Source: Verrucomicrobiota bacterium
GTDB lineage: Bacteria > Verrucomicrobiota > Verrucomicrobiia > Opitutales > UBA953
Reading direction: 5' to 3'
Length of the DNA: 64,000 bases
Assembly (NCBI GenBank): GCA_016871415.1
Contig: VHDL01000001.1
Location: 62,001 to 126,000 of the forward strand
Notes under the pieces: model-generated
What the model saw: only the letters and a program-made list of their open reading frames with translations
What the model was told of the DNA's origin: nothing
Databases searched by the model: none
In this document: one piece after another, positions 9,535 to 20,938 of the stretch
Layout of the letters: every line of letters starts with the position of its first letter
How positions within the stretch are numbered: the stretch's first letter is position 1
Translations under genes and position numbers: made by a program

Positions 9535-10236
9535 ATGCGCAAGCTCATCGAATTCCTCAACCGTCCCGCCCCGCGCGGGAACTTCTTCGCCCGGGCAATC
9601 AACTCCGCCCCCCTGCAGATCGGCGTCTGCCTGCTCATCACCGCCGTCGTGCTCGTCGCGGCCGTCAACGAATACGCCACCAACAAGTATCTGAATGTAG
9701 GATACACGCCCGACCAGCCCGTCGCCTTCGACCACTCCTTCCACTCGGGTCCCGGTTCCGCCCTCGGGCTGGACTGCCGTTACTGCCATAACTTCGTCGA
9801 CAAGTCGGGCCATTCCAACGTCCCCAGCACCAACACCTGCTGGAACTGCCACAGCCAGGTGAAGACGGACAGCCCCGCGCTCGCCCTAGTCAAGAAGAGC
9901 GTCGAGACCGGCGAGGCCATCCGCTGGGTCAAGGTCCACAAGGTGCCCCACTACGTGTACTTCAATCACGCCGTGCACGTGAACCGCGGCGTGAGCTGCG
10001 TCGAGTGCCACGGCCGCGTCGACCAGCAGGTCGTGGTCGGGCAGCAGAAGTCCCTCAACATGTCCTTCTGCCTGGACTGCCACCGCAACCCTGAGCAGGC
10101 GCTGCGTCCCGTCGACAAGGTCACCGACCTCGCCTGGAAGGCCGAGTCTCCCGCCAAGCAGGTCGAGCAGGGCACGAAGTTCGTGCACGACTGGAAGGTG
10201 AACCCGCCGCAGAGCTGCTCCGGCTGCCACCGCTGA
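9535..10236 (+). CDS. actA: Alternative complex III subunit A, pentaheme cytochrome c
   Basis: The protein has 233 residues: an N-terminal membrane anchor (about residues 26-44) and then a periplasmic domain with five CXXCH heme sites, CRYCH, CWNCH, CVECH, CLDCH and CSGCH. It resembles the cytochrome c7/NrfH-like fold seen in ActA of alternative complex III, a quinol:cytochrome c oxidoreductase unrelated to the bc1 complex. It is the first gene of the operon, and actB follows after 21 bases, matching the conserved act gene order. Its hemes should take part in electron transfer out of the complex. Confidence 0.93.
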   Translation: MRKLIEFLNRPAPRGNFFARAINSAPLQIGVCLLITAVVLVAAVNEYATNKYLNVGYTPDQPVAFDHSFHSGPGSALGLDCRYCHNFVDKSGHSNVPSTNTCWNCHSQVKTDSPALALVKKSVETGEAIRWVKVHKVPHYVYFNHAVHVNRGVSCVECHGRVDQQVVVGQQKSLNMSFCLDCHRNPEQALRPVDKVTDLAWKAESPAKQVEQGTKFVHDWKVNPPQSCSGCHR

Positions 10237-10257: not shown

Positions 10258-13200
10258 ATGAGCAAGAAAGTCTTTCAGCATCCCGCCCCGCGCGAAGGCG
10301 CCGTCCAGCCGTGGCGCAGCCTTGCGGAGCGGAACAAGAGCCCCGAGTTCTTGACCCGTGCCGAGCGCGAGTTCGTCGACGGCGCCTCCGCCGCGCCCTC
10401 TCCCGTCGAGCGGCGTGAGTTCCTCACGCTGATGGGCGCCTCGTTCGGTCTCGCCGGTCTCGGCCTGGCCGGCTGCCGCGAGCCCCGTCACCACACGCTG
10501 CCCTACGCCAAGCAGCCCGAGAACACGATTCCGGGCATCCCCATCTACTACGCCAGCTCCTTCCCCGGCGAGTTCGCCAGCCAGCCGCTCATCGTCGAGA
10601 CGCATCAGCACCGTCCCACCAAGGTGGAGGGTAATCCCAGCCACGCCGGCGTCGGCCGCGCCTCCTCCAAGTTCGCGCAAGCCAGCGTCCTCGACCTCTA
10701 CGACCCTGACCGCGCCAAGGGCTCCTACGGCCGCGACGGCGCGCTCCTCGCCCCCTCCGCCGTCCGCGAAGCGCTTCGCGCGCTCGCCGCAGAGGCGAAG
10801 TCCGACGCTGGCGACGGACTCGCCTTCCTCGCCCGTCCCTCCTCCTCGCCGTCGCGCCGTCGTCTCGTCGAAACCGTCCGCGCCGCGCTCCCGAAGGCCC
10901 GTTGGGTCGAATATTCTCCCGTCGCGCAGAATCGCGCCGAGGCTGCCCTCGGTGCTCGCGCCCTGCCCGATTACGCCAAGGCCCGGTGCATCCTCGCCAT
11001 CGACTGCGATTTCCTCGGTTCGGGCGATGCCTCGCTCGAGGCCACCCGTGCCTATTCCGAGGGCCGTCGCGCCGACACCATCGCCGAGGCCGAGCGCATG
11101 ACCCGCCTCTACGTCGCGGAGTCGCTCTTCACCCTCACCGGCGCCGCGGCGGACCATCGTCTCCGCGCGCCCTCCTCGCACATGTCGGCCCTGGCCGCCG
11201 CTTTCGCCAAGGAGGTGCTGAGCCTGACCGGAGGAGCCGCCGCCGCGATCCGCGTCAGCGGCCTGCAGGTCGACGCCCATTGGATTCGCGAATGCGTCCG
11301 CGACCTCGTGGACAACCGTGGCCGGGCGCTCATCGTGGCCGGTGACCATCTCTCGCCCGAGGCCCATCGCGCCGTGGCCGCGGCCAACGCCGCGCTCGCC
11401 GCCCCCGTGCGCTATGTCGCCGTGCCCGACCGCGTCGCCAACGCCTCCCTCGCCGACCTCGCAGCCCGCCCCGCACGCACCCTCGTGATCCTCGGCGGCA
11501 ACCCCGCCTACGACGCGCCCTCCGACGTGCGTTTCGCCGCCGCCGTCAAGGCCGCCGTCAACGTCGTCCGACTGGGCCATCACGGTGCCGAGTTCGACGA
11601 GACCTCCGCCCTCGCCCGCGAGGCCAAGGGTCTCGTGCTCGCCGCCTCGCACTACCTCGAGTCCTGGTCCGACGGCCGCGCCGTCGACGGCACCGTCGTG
11701 CCCGTCCAGCCGATGATCGAGCCGCTCTTCCCCTCGTTCACCGAGCTCGACGTCATCGCTCCCTTCGCCGGTTCCGACAAGGACGCCGCCGCGATCGTCC
11801 GCGAGACCTTCAGCCAGCTCTCCAAGGACGCCTCCGACGCCGCCTACGCGGCCTGGCTTGCCGAGGGAGTGCTCCGCGGAACCGCCTTCGCCCCCGTCCA
11901 GCCGCAGCTCGCCGCGGCCGGCGGCGATTTCTCGGCGCCCGCCGTTTCGTTGGACGCCCTCGAGGCGCGCATCGTGCCCAGCGCGCACGCCGGCGACGGA
12001 CTCTTCGCCAACAACGGGTGGCTCGCCGAGACCCCCGACCCCCTGTCGCGCACCGCTTGGGAGAACGTCATCCTCGTCAGCCCCAGGCTCGCCAAGAAGC
12101 TCTCCATCGAGCCCGCGGCCAGCACAATCAACGAACTCGGAGCGTTGAACCGCAACATCAACGCCGTCGAGGACGGCAAGCTGATGTGCCGCGTGGCTCG
12201 GCTCACCGTCGGAGGCGTCACCGTCACCGGCCCCCTTTTCATCATGCCCGGTCTGGCTGACGGCACCGTCGGCCTGCAGCTCGGCTTCGGCCGCCGGACC
12301 GCGGGCCGCGTGGCCACCCGCGTCGATGCCCGCCTCCGCGGCGAGGTACTCGGCAACGGATTCAGCGCCTATCCTTTCGTCACCGCCGCCTCCCCCGACT
12401 TCCGCAACGGCGTCCGTCTCGAGCTGACCGCCGGGCGCGTCCAGGTCTGTAATCTCCAGGACCACTGGTCCATGGAGGGCCGCGACATCCTGCGCGAGGG
12501 CACCGTGGAGGACCTCCGCGCCGGCACCGACTTCGCCAAGCTGGGCGTCGACGGCCACGCTCCCGCGGTCTATGGCAAGGATGGCGCCATGGCGCCCGCC
12601 CTCAAGGCCGTCACCACGCCCCGGGGCAACTCGGCCTACGAGCACCCTGACCACACCGTGGCGCCGAACGTCGCCGTCTGGCGCGGCCACGAGGACAAGT
12701 TCCCCGCCCCGCAGCAGTGGGGCATGTCGATCGACCTCAGCACCTGCACCGGCTGCAACGCCTGCGTGACCGCGTGCCAGGCCGAGAACAACATCCCCGT
12801 CGTCGGCCGCGACCAGGTGCTCAAGGGACGTAGCATGCACTGGCTGCGCCTCGACCGCTACTTCTCCGACGGACGCGAGCACGCCGGACTTGAGATCCCC
12901 GAGGATCCGCAGATCACCTTCATGGGCGTCGCCTGCCAGCACTGCGAGACCGCTCCGTGCGAGACCGTCTGCCCCGCCAACGCCACCGTGCACGATGAGC
13001 AGGGCCTGAACACCATGGCCTACAACCGCTGCATCGGCACCCGCTACTGCGCGAACAACTGCCCTTACAAGGTGCGCCGCTTCAACTTCCTAGACTACAA
13101 CAAGCGCGAGGCCAGCCACTACTACCAGGGTCCCCTCGGTCCGGAGAAGGCCGTCAAGGATCCCGCCGACCTGCCCCAGATGCAGAAGAATCCCGACGTC

Positions 13201-13593
13201 TCCGTGCGCATGCGCGGCGTCATGGAGAAGTGCACCTACTGCGTGCAGCGCATCCAGGAGGCCAAGATCCGCGCCAAGGTGCGCGCCAAGGACTCCGGCG
13301 ACATCCGCATCCCCGACGGCGCGCTTCAGGTGGCCTGCCAGCAGGCCTGTCCGGCCGGCGCGATCGAGTTTGGCGACATCACCGATCCGAACTCCCGCGT
13401 GGCGAAGGCCAAGGCCTCCTCGCGTAGCTACGGCGCCCTAACCTACCTCAACACCCGCCCGCGCACCACCTACCAGGCGCGCCTCCGCAACCTCAACCCG
13501 AGGATGCCCGGAGCCCGCAAGGCGCCCAACACCCGCCTCGAGCTGGACGGACGCGCCCACGGCCCCTCCCACGCCGAAGGTGCCCACAAGTAA
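10258..13593 (+). CDS. actB: Alternative complex III subunit B, molybdopterin-oxidoreductase-like plus 4Fe-4S domain
   Basis: This 1111-residue protein fuses a large molybdopterin-oxidoreductase-like domain with a C-terminal ferredoxin-like domain, as in known ActB. A Tat-like motif RREFLTLMG (about residues 52-60) precedes a hydrophobic stretch ending in the lipobox-like LAGC (Cys73), so Tat export with lipid anchoring is plausible. Iron-sulfur cysteines are seen at about 830 ([11 protein letters not shown]), 892 ([14 protein letters not shown]), 925 ([12 protein letters not shown]), 992 (CTYC) and 1027 (CQQACP). From family knowledge the large domain carries no molybdenum cofactor in ActB. 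It is followed by actC after 21 bases. Confidence 0.93.
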
Positions 13594-13614: not shown

Positions 13615-15024
<1,410 letters not shown>

Positions 15025-15043: not shown

Positions 15044-15586
15044 ATGAACGAACGCAACGAACGCATCTTCGGCGTCTCTTGCACCTTCCGCAGGCCGTCC
15101 GACGTCTACCGCGCGGCCGAGGAGGTGCGCGACGCCGGCTGGACGCGCTGGGACGTCCACACCCCCTATCCGATTCACGGCCTCGACCAGGCCATGGGCC
15201 TGCCCCGTTCCTCCTTGCCGCGCCTGACGCTGCTGGGCGGCGTGACCGGCTTCATCATCGGCTGCCTGCTCACCTGGTACATGAACTCCTACGACTACCC
15301 GCTGATCGTCGGCGGCAAGCCGTTCTGGAGCGTCATCTACCCGTTCCCGGTGCTCTACGAGTGCACGATCCTCTTCGCCGCCTTCGGCACCTTCTTCGGG
15401 CAGTTCGTCTTCAACCGGCTGCCCCGCCACCACCACCCCCTGTTCGACCTGCCGCAGTTCGCGCGCGTCTCCGACGATACCTTCATGGTCGTCCTCGAGG
15501 CCCGCGACCCGCAGTTCCGCCTGGATGACGCCCGCGGCTTCCTGCAGTCGCTCGGCGGCCAGGAGATCACCGTGATCCGCGACTGA
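15044..15586 (+). CDS. actD: Alternative complex III subunit D (DUF3341)
   Basis: This 180-residue protein begins with a soluble region containing TFRRPSDVYRAAEEVRDAGW, followed by two transmembrane segments (about residues 62-80 and 100-122). The pattern WDVHTPYPIHGLDQAMGL is typical of the ActD/DUF3341 family. It is a structural membrane subunit of alternative complex III with no cofactor motif. The C-terminal part ends in a short soluble region. It sits between actC and actE in the expected order. Confidence 0.9.
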   Translation: MNERNERIFGVSCTFRRPSDVYRAAEEVRDAGWTRWDVHTPYPIHGLDQAMGLPRSSLPRLTLLGGVTGFIIGCLLTWYMNSYDYPLIVGGKPFWSVIYPFPVLYECTILFAAFGTFFGQFVFNRLPRHHHPLFDLPQFARVSDDTFMVVLEARDPQFRLDDARGFLQSLGGQEITVIRD

Positions 15587-15596
15587 GACCCCGTCC

Positions 15597-16313
15597 ATGA
15601 ACCGCTACCTCCTCTCCCTGGCCGTCGTGGTCGTCGCCTGCCTGGGCTTCTTCGGGCTCCAGGGCCGCGTTTCCAAGGACACGCCGGTCCAGGTCTTCGA
15701 CGACATGGACCTGCAGGCCAAGTACCGCCCCCAGGGCGAGAACCGCTTCTTCGCCGACGGCCGCGACGCGCGGCCTCCCGTCGCTGGCACCGTCGCCCGT
15801 GGCGACGACCTCGCTCCCGAGAGGGTCTTCTCCGCCGAATACCGCCGGGCCGAGTCGCTCAATCCCTCCTTCGTGAGCGGCAAGGACGCGCAGGGTGCCC
15901 ATCTCGCCGCCTTCCCCGCCAAGTCGCTGACCGTCCTTCCGGGCGGCGCCCTCGCCGACTTCAAGGTCGACGCCGCAATCCTCGAGACGGGCCGCCAGAA
16001 GTACGGCGTCTACTGCGCCGTCTGCCACGGCGCCGCCGGCGACGGTAACGGCATCATGAAGGTGCGCTCCGCGGTCGAAGGCGACGTCGCCATTGTGACC
16101 ATCGCAAACCTCCACACGCCGCTCTTCCGCGCCTACCCGCACGGCCAGATTTTCGACGTCATCACCAACGGCAAGAACACCATGCAGGGCTACGGCGACA
16201 AGCTGACGCCCGCCGAGCGCTGGGCGGTCGTCGCCTACGTGCGCGCGCTGCAGCTCTCGCAGGCCTGCCCGCCCGAGGCCGTTCCGGCTTCCGTGAAGTC
16301 CCAGACCAAGTGA
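15597..16313 (+). CDS. actE: Alternative complex III subunit E, monoheme cytochrome c
   Basis: The protein has 238 residues, with an N-terminal hydrophobic export or anchor segment (about residues 4-20) and a C-terminal class I cytochrome c domain. The single heme motif is CAVCHGAAGDGNG (Cys140), and a downstream Met in NTMQGYGDKLTP is a candidate distal ligand. ActE is the monoheme cytochrome subunit of the complex and a likely exit point for electrons. Unlike many ActE proteins, no lipobox Cys is evident at the N-terminus. actF follows after seven bases. Confidence 0.9.
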   Translation: MNRYLLSLAVVVVACLGFFGLQGRVSKDTPVQVFDDMDLQAKYRPQGENRFFADGRDARPPVAGTVARGDDLAPERVFSAEYRRAESLNPSFVSGKDAQGAHLAAFPAKSLTVLPGGALADFKVDAAILETGRQKYGVYCAVCHGAAGDGNGIMKVRSAVEGDVAIVTIANLHTPLFRAYPHGQIFDVITNGKNTMQGYGDKLTPAERWAVVAYVRALQLSQACPPEAVPASVKSQTK

Positions 16314-16320
16314 CCTTACA

Positions 16321-17595
16321 ATGACCTCTCTCCCGTCCGCACATCCCGTCACGTCCCGCTGGAAGGCCTTCTTGGCCGTCGGCGTCGTCGCGCTCGCGGT
16401 CTCGTGGGGCTTCGCCGCCCAGGGACTCTCGGCCCATGAGCACCGTCCGGCCCTCTCCGTGCTCGTCGGAGGCCTCTTCTGGACCTCGGTCCTCATCGGC
16501 ATGCTCATGCTCACGATGATCACCCGCGTCTTCGACGCGGGCTGGGCTCCGGTCATCCGCCGCTCCTGGGAACTCGCGCTCCCCGGTCTGCCGACCGTCC
16601 TCGCCCTCAGCGTCCTGCCGCTGGCGCTGATTCCCGGTTTCCGTCACCTCCTCTGGGAGTGGACCGACGCCCATCATGTCCTGCCCAGCGGGCACGAGGT
16701 CGGTCATGACCCCATCCTGCAGTCCAAGGCCTGGTTCCTCAACGGCCCCTTCTTCCTCACCCGCGTCGTGCTCTACGTCGTCTTCTTCGGCGTACTCGTC
16801 TGGGCGCTCCGTCGCGGGTCCATCGCGCAGGACTCGGACCGCACTGCCGGCCACACGCACCGCCTGCACGCCGTCTCGGCCGCCGGCATCCCCCTCTCGG
16901 CCGTCATGCTCACCATGCTGGCTTTCGACTGCCTCATGGCGCTCTCCTACCACTGGTTCTCCACCATGTACGGTGTCTGGTTCTTCGCGCTTTCCATCCG
17001 CCTCGCACTCGCCGTGACCGTGCTCGTCACGTATTTCCTCTCCCGCGGAGGCTGGCTCGACGGCATCCTCAACCAGGCCCATCGCCATGTCTTGGGCTGC
17101 CTCTGCCTGGCCTTCACGGTCTTCTGGGCCTACATCAGCTTCTCGCAGTACTTCCTCATCTACACGGCCAACATCCCCGAGGAGACCTTCTGGTACAACA
17201 TCCGCGAGCTGGATCCCGTGACTGGAGCCAAGAATCAGTGGTGGGGCGTCTCGATGTACCTCATCTTTGGCTTCTTCGTCCTGCCTTTCCTCGCCCTCCT
17301 GTTCTACCGCACCAAGATTCTGGCCGGACGTCTCGCCTCAGTGGCGGCGGTAATCCTCGTGGGCGGATTGGTGGACCTCTGGTTCAACGCCGTGCCGCGC
17401 CAGATCACGACCCCGGGCGCACCCGAGGGCTTCACGGTAACCCCGTTCCTCTCCTCCGGCCTGGCCCTCGACCTCCTCGCGGTCATCGGCTTCGGCGCGC
17501 TGGTCGTCGGCCTCCTCCTTCGCGGCGCCTCCCGTCATGAGACCATCCCGGTCCACGACCCCCGCATCCTCGAGTCGATCCATTACCATGAGTGA
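16321..17595 (+). CDS. actF: Alternative complex III subunit F, integral membrane protein
   Basis: This 424-residue protein has about ten hydrophobic segments. It is related to the ActC/NrfD group but more divergent, as is usual for ActF. Segments such as KAWFLNGPFFLTRVVLYVVFFG, MLAFDCLMALSYHWFSTMYGVWFF and FWAYISFSQYFLIY are characteristic of the act-cluster quinol:cytochrome c oxidoreductase subunit. Its last codons overlap the start of the following cytochrome gene by eight bases, so translation is probably coupled. The role is structural, in the membrane arm of the complex. Confidence 0.9.
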   Translation: MTSLPSAHPVTSRWKAFLAVGVVALAVSWGFAAQGLSAHEHRPALSVLVGGLFWTSVLIGMLMLTMITRVFDAGWAPVIRRSWELALPGLPTVLALSVLPLALIPGFRHLLWEWTDAHHVLPSGHEVGHDPILQSKAWFLNGPFFLTRVVLYVVFFGVLVWALRRGSIAQDSDRTAGHTHRLHAVSAAGIPLSAVMLTMLAFDCLMALSYHWFSTMYGVWFFALSIRLALAVTVLVTYFLSRGGWLDGILNQAHRHVLGCLCLAFTVFWAYISFSQYFLIYTANIPEETFWYNIRELDPVTGAKNQWWGVSMYLIFGFFVLPFLALLFYRTKILAGRLASVAAVILVGGLVDLWFNAVPRQITTPGAPEGFTVTPFLSSGLALDLLAVIGFGALVVGLLLRGASRHETIPVHDPRILESIHYHE

Positions 17596-18331
17596 GCTTC
17601 CTCTCCGCTCCCGTCCGCTGATCCCCGGCCAGGTCGCCTCCTGGCTGGCGGTCCTTGCGCTCGTCGGAGCCGTCACCGCGGCCTCCGTGGCGGCGTTCCT
17701 TCACTTCCGCACGGGCGTCTCTCCCGAGGCCGCCCGTCGCGCCCAGCAGGTCGCTCTCCGTGCCGAGACCGAAGCCAAGGCGTCCACGCTGCTCGCCTCC
17801 TCTGCCAAGAATGACGACGGCACTTACCGAATCCCTCTCAACGAAGCCTTGCGCATCGCCGCCGAGCGTCCCGAGGTGCTCGGCAAGCTCGCTCCAGCCG
17901 TCGCGCCTGCCGCTCCGGCCTCTTCCGCTCCCACGGCCTTCGTGCCCGCCGATGAGGCCACGCTCAAGCGCGGGCAGGCCGTCTACGCCCGCACCTGCAT
18001 CGCCTGCCACCAGCCCACGGGCATGGGTCTGCCGCCCGTCTTCCCGCCGCTCGTGGAATCGCCCCTGGTCACCGGCGACCCGTCCCTCTCCATCAAGTTC
18101 GTCCTGCACGGGCTGATGGGCCCCGTCACCGTCAAGGGCATAACTTATAATTCCATGATGCCGCCCGTGATGGGCGTCACCGACCAAGATATCGCCGACG
18201 TGCTCACCTACGTCCGTCAGAGCTTCGGCAACAAGGCCTCGGCCGTGACCGTCGCCCAGGTCAAGGCCGTGCGTGACGCGGCCTCCGGCCGTACCGTGCC
18301 CTGGAACACCGCCGAGCTCGGCATCAAGTGA
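17588..18331 (+). CDS. Membrane-anchored monoheme cytochrome c of the act operon
   Basis: This 247-residue protein has one N-terminal transmembrane anchor (about residues 17-38). A charged, Ala-rich linker contains DGTYRIPLNEALRI, and a C-terminal class I cytochrome c domain carries CIACHQPTGMG (Cys137, Cys140, His141) and candidate ligand Met residues in YNSMMPPVMG. The heme domain is very similar to that of the gene at 20258-20938, pointing to a duplication. The start overlaps the actF stop. It probably carries electrons from alternative complex III to a terminal oxidase. Confidence 0.85.
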   Translation: MSELPLRSRPLIPGQVASWLAVLALVGAVTAASVAAFLHFRTGVSPEAARRAQQVALRAETEAKASTLLASSAKNDDGTYRIPLNEALRIAAERPEVLGKLAPAVAPAAPASSAPTAFVPADEATLKRGQAVYARTCIACHQPTGMGLPPVFPPLVESPLVTGDPSLSIKFVLHGLMGPVTVKGITYNSMMPPVMGVTDQDIADVLTYVRQSFGNKASAVTVAQVKAVRDAASGRTVPWNTAELGIK

Positions 18332-18342
18332 ACCCTCCTCCA

Positions 18343-19707
18343 ATGACTCAGGAACAACGATCCGGCCGCCCTGACGAGGACCGTTCCCGCCTGTCGCGGA
18401 TTGATGCCCCTCTGCGCGCCCCCTTCCTCCTCCTGTTCGGTTCAGCCGCCCTGTGGCTGATGCTGTCCTCGGCGCTCTCGCTGCTGACGACCCTCAAGGC
18501 CCTGCCCGCCGGGATTGGATCCTACGAGTGGTTCGCCCACGGTCGCCTGGAGGCTGCCGCGCGCAACGCCTTCGTCTACGGATGGGCCGGCAACGCCCTG
18601 TTTGCGATCAACCTCTGGCTGCTCGCCCAGCTCGGCAGGTTTGAGATTCGCAACGGCTGGATGGCCTCGGTCGGCGGGTTGTTCTGGAACCTCGCCCTCA
18701 CCTGGTGCACGGGCTCCGTGATCGTCTCCGGCCCCGGCGCCTACGCGCTGCTCGACTTCCCGGTCGGCGCCGGCCCGGTGTTGGCCGCATCCTTCGCGCT
18801 GGCCGGTCTCTGGCCCGTGGTGGCGTACGCCAAGCGTCCCACCGGACACAACTTCGCCGCCCAGTGGTTCGTGGTCGGCGCTTCGGTGACATTCCTCCTG
18901 GCCTTCCTGCTCGCTCAGGCCGCGGTCTTCTGGGCTCCCGCATCCGGCGTGGTCCAGGCCGTCGCCCATTCCTGGTATGTCCGCACCGTGCACCTTCTCT
19001 GGCTCGGCGGCTCCGCGCTCGGACTCGGCTACTACTTCGTGTCCAAGGTGCTGGCGCGTCCTCTCCACGCCTACTACCTGGCCTCCGTCGCCTTCTGGAC
19101 TTACTTCCTCTTCGCCGGCTGGACCGCTCCGGCCTCCCTCATCGGCTCCCCCGTCCCCCTCTGGATCCAGTCGATTGGCGTCGTGGGCTCGATGATGCTG
19201 CTCGTGCCGGTGCTGCTCATCGGCCTGAACTTGCTCGGCGCGCTCTCCCGCGACGGCGGATGGTTCCGCGCCTGGAACAGCACCTCGCTGCGCTTTATCT
19301 CCATCGGCATTGTCTCCCTGCTGGCTTCGCTGGCGATTGCCGCCTGGGCCTCGGACCGCTCCGTCAACGCCGGCCTGAGGTTCACCTCCTTCGCCGAAGG
19401 GCAGAATCTCCTGCTGCTTTACGCGGGCGTGACGTTCTGCGTGTTCGGCGCTGCCTATGCGGCGTTGCCCCGCGTGTCCGGAGGCCGCTGGCCTTCCGCC
19501 GCCGCCATCCACGTCCACTTCTGGGCGTCCACCCTCGGCGCCGCCGGCGCGGCCTTCGCGGCCTTCGCCCATCCTTCAGCCCATGGATTCATCAGCGCCG
19601 TCTCGGCGGCGCTCCTGCTCATCGGACATCTCGCCTTCGCCTCCACCGCCTTCGCCGCGCTTCTCAGCGGCGTCCCGGCCGGCGAGTCCCAACCTGCCCA
19701 CGACTGA
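18343..19707 (+). CDS. CcoN-like (cbb3 oxidase subunit I) protein lacking heme and copper ligands
   Basis: A polytopic protein of about 454 residues with roughly twelve hydrophobic segments. Numbering below is from an alternative GTG start at 18328. Several stretches align with CcoN: GYYFVSKVLARP with the YYFVPK motif, AFWTYFLFAGW with HFWALIFLYIW, and PLWIQSIGVVGS after it. At the positions expected for ligands it has Ala78 (low-spin heme His), Arg218 and Ala269-Ser270 (three Cu ligands), Gln359 and Leu361 (helix X heme His pair) and Ala263 (cross-linked Tyr). It therefore cannot form the known binuclear centre. It lies between a monoheme cytochrome and a CcoO-like gene. The alignment is from memory of the family. 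It may be a structural or docking subunit. Confidence 0.75.
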   Translation: MTQEQRSGRPDEDRSRLSRIDAPLRAPFLLLFGSAALWLMLSSALSLLTTLKALPAGIGSYEWFAHGRLEAAARNAFVYGWAGNALFAINLWLLAQLGRFEIRNGWMASVGGLFWNLALTWCTGSVIVSGPGAYALLDFPVGAGPVLAASFALAGLWPVVAYAKRPTGHNFAAQWFVVGASVTFLLAFLLAQAAVFWAPASGVVQAVAHSWYVRTVHLLWLGGSALGLGYYFVSKVLARPLHAYYLASVAFWTYFLFAGWTAPASLIGSPVPLWIQSIGVVGSMMLLVPVLLIGLNLLGALSRDGGWFRAWNSTSLRFISIGIVSLLASLAIAAWASDRSVNAGLRFTSFAEGQNLLLLYAGVTFCVFGAAYAALPRVSGGRWPSAAAIHVHFWASTLGAAGAAFAAFAHPSAHGFISAVSAALLLIGHLAFASTAFAALLSGVPAGESQPAHD

Positions 19708-19716
19708 ACCATCGTC

Positions 19717-20253
19717 ATGAAGAACTTCCGATACCTCGTCCTCGGCGCGCTCGCCGCCACGGCTTTGCCTTTCGTCGGTATCGTCGTCGGGGCCCAGGCC
19801 CAGTTCAACTCCCTTGGCCGTGCTCCCGCCGAGGAGGGAGGCCCCCTCATGCCCCCTCTGGAGCCCGGTCAGGCTATCCAGGGCAGGCAGGTCTACCTTT
19901 CCCTCGGTTGCGTCAGCTGCCACACCCAGCAGGTGCGTCCGGCGGGGCAGGGCGGTGACATCGCCGGCGCCCTCGGCGCCCGTCCCTCCGTCGCCCGTGA
20001 CTACGTGCTTCAGCCCGTCGTTCTGCTTGGCGACCGTCGCATCGGGCCCGACCTCGCCAACTATGGCGTCCGGGCCAAGGCCGACGCCGACGTGCACCTC
20101 GCGATCCTGCACAAAGTCGGGGGCCGGGATCAGTTCGGGTTCCTCTATTCTGGAGCGAATCACGAAATCCCTTCGGAGCGGGCCGTCATGCTCGCCGCCT
20201 ACCTGCGTTCCCTTCGTCAGGATTACTCCTCTCCCGAAGCCCCTCTGAAGTGA
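19717..20253 (+). CDS. CcoO-like membrane-anchored monoheme cytochrome c
   Basis: The protein has 178 residues: an N-terminal transmembrane segment (about residues 6-28) and then a periplasmic domain with one heme motif, GCVSCHTQQVRP (Cys65, Cys68, His69). The segment after the heme, with LLGDRRIGPDLANYG, matches the CcoO pattern GSKRTGPDLARVG, so it is the FixO/CcoO partner of a cbb3-type subunit I. It is shorter than typical CcoO (about 200 residues). It follows the CcoN-like gene by nine bases. Unlike that neighbour, it keeps its cofactor site. Confidence 0.83.
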   Translation: MKNFRYLVLGALAATALPFVGIVVGAQAQFNSLGRAPAEEGGPLMPPLEPGQAIQGRQVYLSLGCVSCHTQQVRPAGQGGDIAGALGARPSVARDYVLQPVVLLGDRRIGPDLANYGVRAKADADVHLAILHKVGGRDQFGFLYSGANHEIPSERAVMLAAYLRSLRQDYSSPEAPLK

Positions 20254-20257
20254 CACT

Positions 20258-20938
20258 ATGAATGACCGCAACCGCCATTATGACCGCAACCGGCCCCGTC
20301 AGGGTAGTCCCGGGCCCGAAGGCTTCTCCGACGGCCGTCTCGTCGAGGTGCACTCCCAGATCGCCCGGGACAAGCAGGAGCCCGCGCAGGGCTTCTCGAT
20401 GACCCCGATCTTAGTGGTCTTCCTGTTCTGCGCCCTCGGTTTCTGGGCCGGCCTCTACCTCACCCGCAATTCCCGCGGCTTCTCCGCTTCCGCCTTCGAT
20501 CTCAACGCCCCCGTGGCTTTCGCCTCGGCCGGTCCCGTGGTCTTCGAGCCCGATGCCGCCAAGGGCCAGACGCTCTACCTCGCCAACTGCGCCGCCTGCC
20601 ACCAGCCCACCGGCGCCGGTGTCCCCGGGGCGTTCCCGCCTCTGGTCAAGTCCCTCTGGGTCGCCGGTGACGAGAAGCGCATCATCAAGATCATCATCGC
20701 GGGCATGGCTGGTGAGGTCGAAATCGATGGAGTCAAGTACAACGGCAACATGCCCAACGTCGGCGTGGCCCTCAAGGACGCCCAGATTGCGCACATCGCG
20801 ACCTACGTCCGTTCTGCCTGGGGCAACGCCGCCGAGCCCGTTATGGACGCCTCCGTGGCCGCCGTCCGCAAGGAGATCGGCGCTAGGGGCCAGTACAGCC
20901 CGAAGGAGGTGCTAGACGCGCACCCCCTCGGCAACTGA
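20258..20938 (+). CDS. CcoP-position monoheme cytochrome c, last gene of the act operon
   Basis: This 226-residue protein has a polar N-terminus of about 48 residues, one transmembrane helix (about 49-69) and a C-terminal class I cytochrome c domain with CAACHQPTGAGVPGAFPPL (Cys111, Cys114, His115) and a candidate Met ligand in YNGNMPNVG. The topology is that of CcoP/FixP, and it occupies the ccoP position, but it has one heme rather than the usual two. The heme domain resembles that at 17588-18331 much more closely than typical CcoP. A terminator-like hairpin follows at 20967. Confidence 0.82.
   Translation: MNDRNRHYDRNRPRQGSPGPEGFSDGRLVEVHSQIARDKQEPAQGFSMTPILVVFLFCALGFWAGLYLTRNSRGFSASAFDLNAPVAFASAGPVVFEPDAAKGQTLYLANCAACHQPTGAGVPGAFPPLVKSLWVAGDEKRIIKIIIAGMAGEVEIDGVKYNGNMPNVGVALKDAQIAHIATYVRSAWGNAAEPVMDASVAAVRKEIGARGQYSPKEVLDAHPLGN

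Follow-up and report, generated by a model that had tools for sequence, protein, structure and literature searches.

A protein encoded beside alternative complex III (ACIII) in the window (the whole stretch of DNA analysed, 64,000 nucleotides), here called N, is a subunit I of the heme-copper oxidase (HCO) superfamily by descent and fold that stands outside the catalytic family. Comparison with its relatives extends the initial annotation of this DNA by indicating that the ancestral N in the same operon position belonged to a complete C-type oxidase, and that parallel disarming took place many times, ccoS being lost as well. We consider it probable that an ACIII-cbb3 module has been converted repeatedly to a non-catalytic scaffold, the cytochromes of which carry ACIII electrons to a separate caa3 oxidase.

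A CcoN homologue without ligands in an ACIII operon

The open reading frame of N (18328-19707, + strand) encodes 459 amino acids from a GTG codon that overlaps the stop codon of the preceding gene (17537..18331); an alternative ATG start at 18343, five codons further in, would give 454 amino acids. The genes are arranged as follows, with O and P denoting the CcoO/FixO-like and CcoP-like cytochromes:

9535..10236, + strand: ActA, multiheme cytochrome c (Pfam Cytochrome_C7/CIII and NCBIfam QrcA-like matches)
10258..13593, + strand: ActB, iron-sulfur/molybdopterin-like subunit (open reading frame, assigned by its position, which is that of ActB in relatives)
13615..15024, + strand: ActC, NrfD-like membrane subunit (Pfam NrfD, E 1e-23)
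15044..15586, + strand: ActD (Pfam ActD, E 1e-59)
15597..16313, + strand: ActE, monoheme cytochrome c (Pfam Cytochrome_CBB3, E 2e-13)
16321..17595, + strand: ActF, membrane subunit (operon position, conserved in relatives; no Pfam match above cut-off)
17537..18331, + strand: membrane-anchored cytochrome c (Pfam Cytochrom_C, E 6e-11; HMM of the protein in the ActF-N gap, E 1.5e-6)
18328..19707, + strand: N, disarmed CcoN homologue, six His ligands and cross-linked Tyr replaced (profiles, alignment, AlphaFold fold)
19717..20253, + strand: O, CcoO/FixO-like membrane monoheme cytochrome c with CVSCH kept (Pfam FixO, 37.2 bits, cut-off 29.6)
20258..20938, + strand: P, CcoP-like membrane cytochrome c with a single heme motif, CAACH (Pfam Cytochrom_C, E 1e-13; TIGR00782 ccoP, E 5e-13)

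Since all of these genes, from ActA to P, lie on the + strand with intergenic gaps of about 4-21 bases or overlaps, they probably form one operon. ActA to ActF stand in order with N, O and P downstream, as in an ACIII operon. Compared with what characterises a cbb3 complex, the window has a CcoO-like monoheme cytochrome adjoining the CcoN homologue, and it lacks both the diheme CcoP (one CXXCH in P, likewise in nearly all intact relatives) and the CcoS assembly factor. The N-terminal half of the 17537-18331 product matches a small membrane protein located between ActF and N in relatives, and the gene represents a fusion, present in the window's genus, that joins this protein to a cytochrome c domain.

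The initial annotation had described N as a CcoN-like oxidase subunit, a description that the profile, structure and fold comparisons all bear out. N matched Pfam COX1 (PF00115) with E 6e-21 and 75.1 bits, above the curated cut-off of 34.8, and TIGR00780 (ccoN) with E 3e-19 and 69.3 bits, far below the equivalog cut-off of 583. Its closest PDB sequences are the CcoN chains of 9g6b and 3mk7 (E about 1e-17). An AlphaFold model of N has 12 helices in a CcoN fold (mean pLDDT 80, pTM 0.85), and among solved structures CcoN chains resemble it most closely (Z 40.2, rmsd 2.6 over 422 residues); the input alignment of the model consisted of CcoN-like relatives, which makes this support for the fold dependent on homology. 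Relatives of N were searched for among viral contigs, and none were found.

Ligand positions were taken from the alignment to Pseudomonas stutzeri CcoN (3mk7), in which the last two ligands are numbered H345/H347. In N, the low-spin heme ligand H60 is replaced by A78, H207 by R219, the cross-linked Tyr Y251 by A263, H257-H258 by A269-S270, H345 by Q359 and H347 by L361. The replacements listed in the initial annotation were all recovered, with the single correction that its 'Arg218' was off by one and is R219. As the six His and the C-type cross-linked Tyr that define a catalytic heme-copper oxidase are replaced at 7/7 positions, N falls outside the catalytic family, and it is near certain that it does not catalyse oxygen reduction, in agreement with the earlier claim that it cannot reduce O2 in the known way. 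An alignment slip as the cause of the missing ligands was rejected, the alignment being bridged at these positions by dozens of intact relatives (35-40% identity). The ligands were also lost in 33/33 N proteins examined from the window's genus, with differing substitutions, so that the loss is not private to one genome.

Intact and disarmed relatives, ccoS and other oxidases

Judging by its named relatives, the window probably belongs among Opitutales-like Verrucomicrobiota. N homologues, some of them ordinary CcoN, are encoded in 104 of 177 sampled genomes of the same order. Among the relatives' loci, which were fetched with flanks, nearly all kept the order ActABCDEF-N-O-P. Homologues that lack the ligands are indeed found together with act genes, a check that the initial annotation had proposed. 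Three loci (L224, L226 and L227) carry an intact N-O-P without nearby act genes; these are second copies, in genomes that have the ACIII operon too.

We call an N protein 'intact' if all seven ligand residues are present and 'disarmed' if at least one is absent. Out of 192 distinct proteins, 109 were intact (one of them truncated at its start) and 83 were disarmed, the latter with about 50 distinct substitution patterns. Given in the order H60 H207 Y251 H257 H258 H345 H347, the window has ARAASQL, and other members of its genus have QQAASQQ, AQAAAQQ and EQAATLH. Within this genus, two non-ancestral His are conserved, at window positions 214 and 395. Six more families of the class (f29, f30, f31, f33, f35 and f37) likewise include disarmed N. 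One genome of the window's genus has a further disarmed N at the edge of a contig (L228), which is possibly contamination. In family f2, nearly all disarmed N keep the equivalents of H257, H258 and H345 and have lost the other four residues (loci L195, L197, L198, L200, L201, L204-L206, L208, L210, L211, L216 and L223); judging from residue conservation, this triad may be a candidate new metal site.

Loss of the ligands was accompanied by loss of ccoS. The interval between ActF and N in intact operons encodes the small membrane protein and a protein of 65-90 amino acids matching PF03597 (FixS/CcoS), with E values of 1e-6 to 4e-4 in four examples tried, some just below cut-off. With an HMM built from intact operons, ccoS was found immediately upstream of N in 102/102 intact operons scored and in 2/79 disarmed operons, being absent from the other 77. 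The two disarmed operons that keep it are L180 (FFSNYHY) and L115 (HHSARHH). The latter, from Opitutaceae, still has both heme sites and lacks the Tyr and two of the CuB His; its pattern suggests that it is perhaps an intermediate with hemes and without copper. Because the HMM had been trained on intact operons, whole genomes were searched with the curated PF03597 profile as well. The best match adjoined N in the intact-N genomes tried, above cut-off in seven and below it in G010, G143 and G079. In the whole genome of the window the best PF03597 match had E 0.97, and no credible CcoS was found there or in the operon. CcoG (TIGR02745) was absent from intact and disarmed genomes alike and is uninformative. 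Active cbb3 requires CcoS (PMC7558416), and the loss of ccoS, as a separate line of evidence, indicates that disarmed N is without oxidase cofactors. According to a passage in PMC5742617, citing Koch 2000 and Kulajta 2006, cbb3 of Rhodobacter capsulatus is fully assembled and inactive without CcoS; an assembled complex without oxidase activity is therefore feasible. The likeness to the disarmed-N module lies in this assembled, inactive cbb3-type complex, but the R. capsulatus case is a laboratory mutant with all ligands, whereas N is a natural, ligand-less protein.

Intact N was the sole HCO found in four genomes (G010, G079, G143 and the 80% complete G005), which also lack a bd oxidase; to judge from this gene content, intact N is evidently a real oxidase. 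Another HCO was found in 53/54 disarmed-N genomes, the one exception being G037 (410 contigs), in which no other oxidase was found. The window's genome (2.2 Mb, 99.5% complete) has one PF00115 gene besides N, on another contig, in a caa3 operon encoding CtaC (with a CuA motif and a fused cytochrome c), CtaD, CtaE and CtaF; a search of this genome for cytochrome bd found none. In two other genomes (G004:C1:382213-387205 and G014:C10:17102-21874), an HCO gene encoding about 600 amino acids is unusually paired with a partial match resembling cytochrome bd subunit I, which lies some 3 kb away.

The heme motifs of the neighbouring cytochromes are retained. CXXCH was kept in all O, and in all P but one, of the disarmed operons scored; in L285, a disarmed operon, the called O frame has no CXXCH. 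A third CXXCH motif after ActF was present in 27/77 disarmed versus 2/88 intact operons, a simple count in which the window's genus is heavily represented.

Proposed scaffold role and comparison with known systems

We infer a scaffold role for disarmed N, together with its assembly with ACIII, the electron path and the absence of a new cofactor. The ancestor of N would have been catalytic, as subunit I of a C-type (cbb3-like) oxidase whose genes stood with those of ACIII. Once another oxidase took over O2 reduction, the active site of N would have been free to decay and ccoS to be lost, and the heme and copper sites would have disappeared in the window's genus and, independently, in many other verrucomicrobial lineages. 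What was retained would be a cofactor-free membrane platform of 12 helices that anchors the CcoO-like and CcoP-like cytochromes beside ACIII, and in the window also the third, fused cytochrome, an extra carrier presumably gained in this genus when the small membrane protein acquired a cytochrome c domain. Electrons would then pass from menaquinol through ActA/ActE to the hemes of O and P and on to the separate caa3 oxidase, and N would stay because the electron exit must be held in place. The wider form of this proposal, in which the phylum has seen about 16 parallel conversions of an HCO catalytic subunit into a structural component, free of cofactors, of an ACIII-cytochrome supercomplex, we also favour, with slightly less assurance. 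The structural role suggested in the initial annotation is thus the best-supported explanation of disarmed N, by inference; its alternative suggestion of a new electron-transfer module fits the surrounding cytochromes but not N itself, which has no visible cofactor site.

It is unlikely that N, deprived of oxygen chemistry, instead binds another cofactor (heme via other ligands, copper, zinc or quinone) as an electron-transfer or reductase subunit. The nearly strict H257-H258-H345 triad of family f2 and the new conserved His of the window's genus would suit such a function, but no replacement ligand set is common to the lineages, the substitutions being diverse (Q, A, S, E, F, Y, R, L), and ccoS is lost, with no credible CcoS match in the window's genome.

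Marginally less probable again is that N is a docking or proton-handling subunit joining ACIII to caa3 in a supercomplex in which O and P would be incidental. Docking to another oxidase had been proposed in the initial annotation, and docking to caa3 is possible by analogy with Flavobacterium johnsoniae, where ACIII and an A-type oxidase associate in a supercomplex (PMC8361435, PMC8552683); the nearly constant presence of another HCO in disarmed-N genomes points the same way. Intact relatives, however, share the operon without need for a docking role, and the residues lost from disarmed N include polar ones, for example S240. In the F. johnsoniae supercomplex, as in the arrangement proposed here, ACIII hands its electrons to an A-type oxidase, but in F. 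johnsoniae the oxidase itself docks to ACIII, whereas the window has a disarmed C-type subunit in the operon and caa3 on another contig.

A close comparison for the window's module is with C-type oxidase genes beside ACIII, which are described for verrucomicrobial methanotrophs and Opitutaceae in PMC6688271 and PMC8498564 (the latter in connection with Refojo 2010). The gene neighbourhood is the same as in the window, and the intact members of the N family are probably this known system; the window differs in having a ligand-less CcoN, no ccoS and an additional, fused cytochrome. With canonical cbb3 CcoNOQP (3mk7, 8smr, 6xkw) the window has in common the CcoN fold and the CcoO-like and CcoP-like cytochromes, but its N has no heme or copper ligands, its CcoP-like protein has one heme motif rather than two, its module is encoded with ACIII and its genome is without CcoS. 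The ACIII-cbb3 gene neighbourhood was thus already known, while for the disarmed form no published description was found in the open-access literature, either of a ligand-less or inactive CcoN or HCO or of ccoS co-loss.

Heme-copper oxidases are defined by a subunit I with hemes and copper. That selection has kept a ligand-free subunit I in many lineages shows that this protein can be of use even when its chemistry is gone, its likely task being to hold electron carriers in place; it would represent an HCO pseudoenzyme with a scaffold function selectable independently of catalysis. The natural series of intact, partly lost and fully lost N, with and without ccoS, offers a means of separating assembly and docking roles from catalysis, and also bears on how ACIII hands on its electrons, which is still debated. 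A PF00115 or CcoN-like match beside act genes is no proof of a high-affinity oxidase, and such genomes could be misread on this point.

Number of independent losses and selection on N

How many losses are counted varies with the tree used, with 5-6 changes of N on the N tree, 10 on the O+P tree and 14-17 on ActA-F trees. On the concatenated ActA-F tree (164 operons), N changes 16 times and ccoS 15 times (a first ActA-F tree, of 140 operons, gave 14 changes of N), and among 16 independent pairs ccoS changed in the same direction as N in 14.8 and in the opposite direction in 0 (p 6e-5). The tree of N itself gave five changes under a simple model and six under LG+C20 with the catalytic columns removed. 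At least five independent losses are firm, and our best estimate is that N was disarmed about 16 times.

The simple-model N tree, with its five changes, places most disarmed proteins together, as would be expected if all disarmed N came from one ancient disarmed paralogue swapped between operons; this grouping was examined as long-branch attraction by a mixture model and AU tests. Under LG+C20, the window's genus is sister to the intact N of its family (SH-aLRT 98), g54 falls inside f11 (99), and L175 and L115 group with the intact L189 (99) and L104 (93), respectively. With catalytic columns removed, the AU test rejected a single clade of all disarmed N (p 3e-43), and did not reject family-wise clades of disarmed plus intact N in f14 (0.73) and f11 (0.51). 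One ancient paralogue for all disarmed N is rejected on this test and very improbable; a partial version, with a few swaps, is possible.

Disarmed N is under purifying selection, with pairwise NG86 omega of 0.04-0.22 (0.17-0.19 in the window group), compared with 0.03-0.06 for intact N. The initial annotation was right in noting that the gene is kept intact. Survival by chance as a decaying pseudogene, for which the faster evolution of disarmed N relative to intact N and the omega of the window group might be cited, is rejected as extremely improbable by the full-length open reading frame, an omega far below 1 and the retention of N across whole families with operon order kept. The columns fixed in intact N and lost in disarmed N comprise the ligands together with R57, W203, S236, S240, Y317, H337 and others, and those retained in disarmed N are scaffold W, P, G, Y and K residues.
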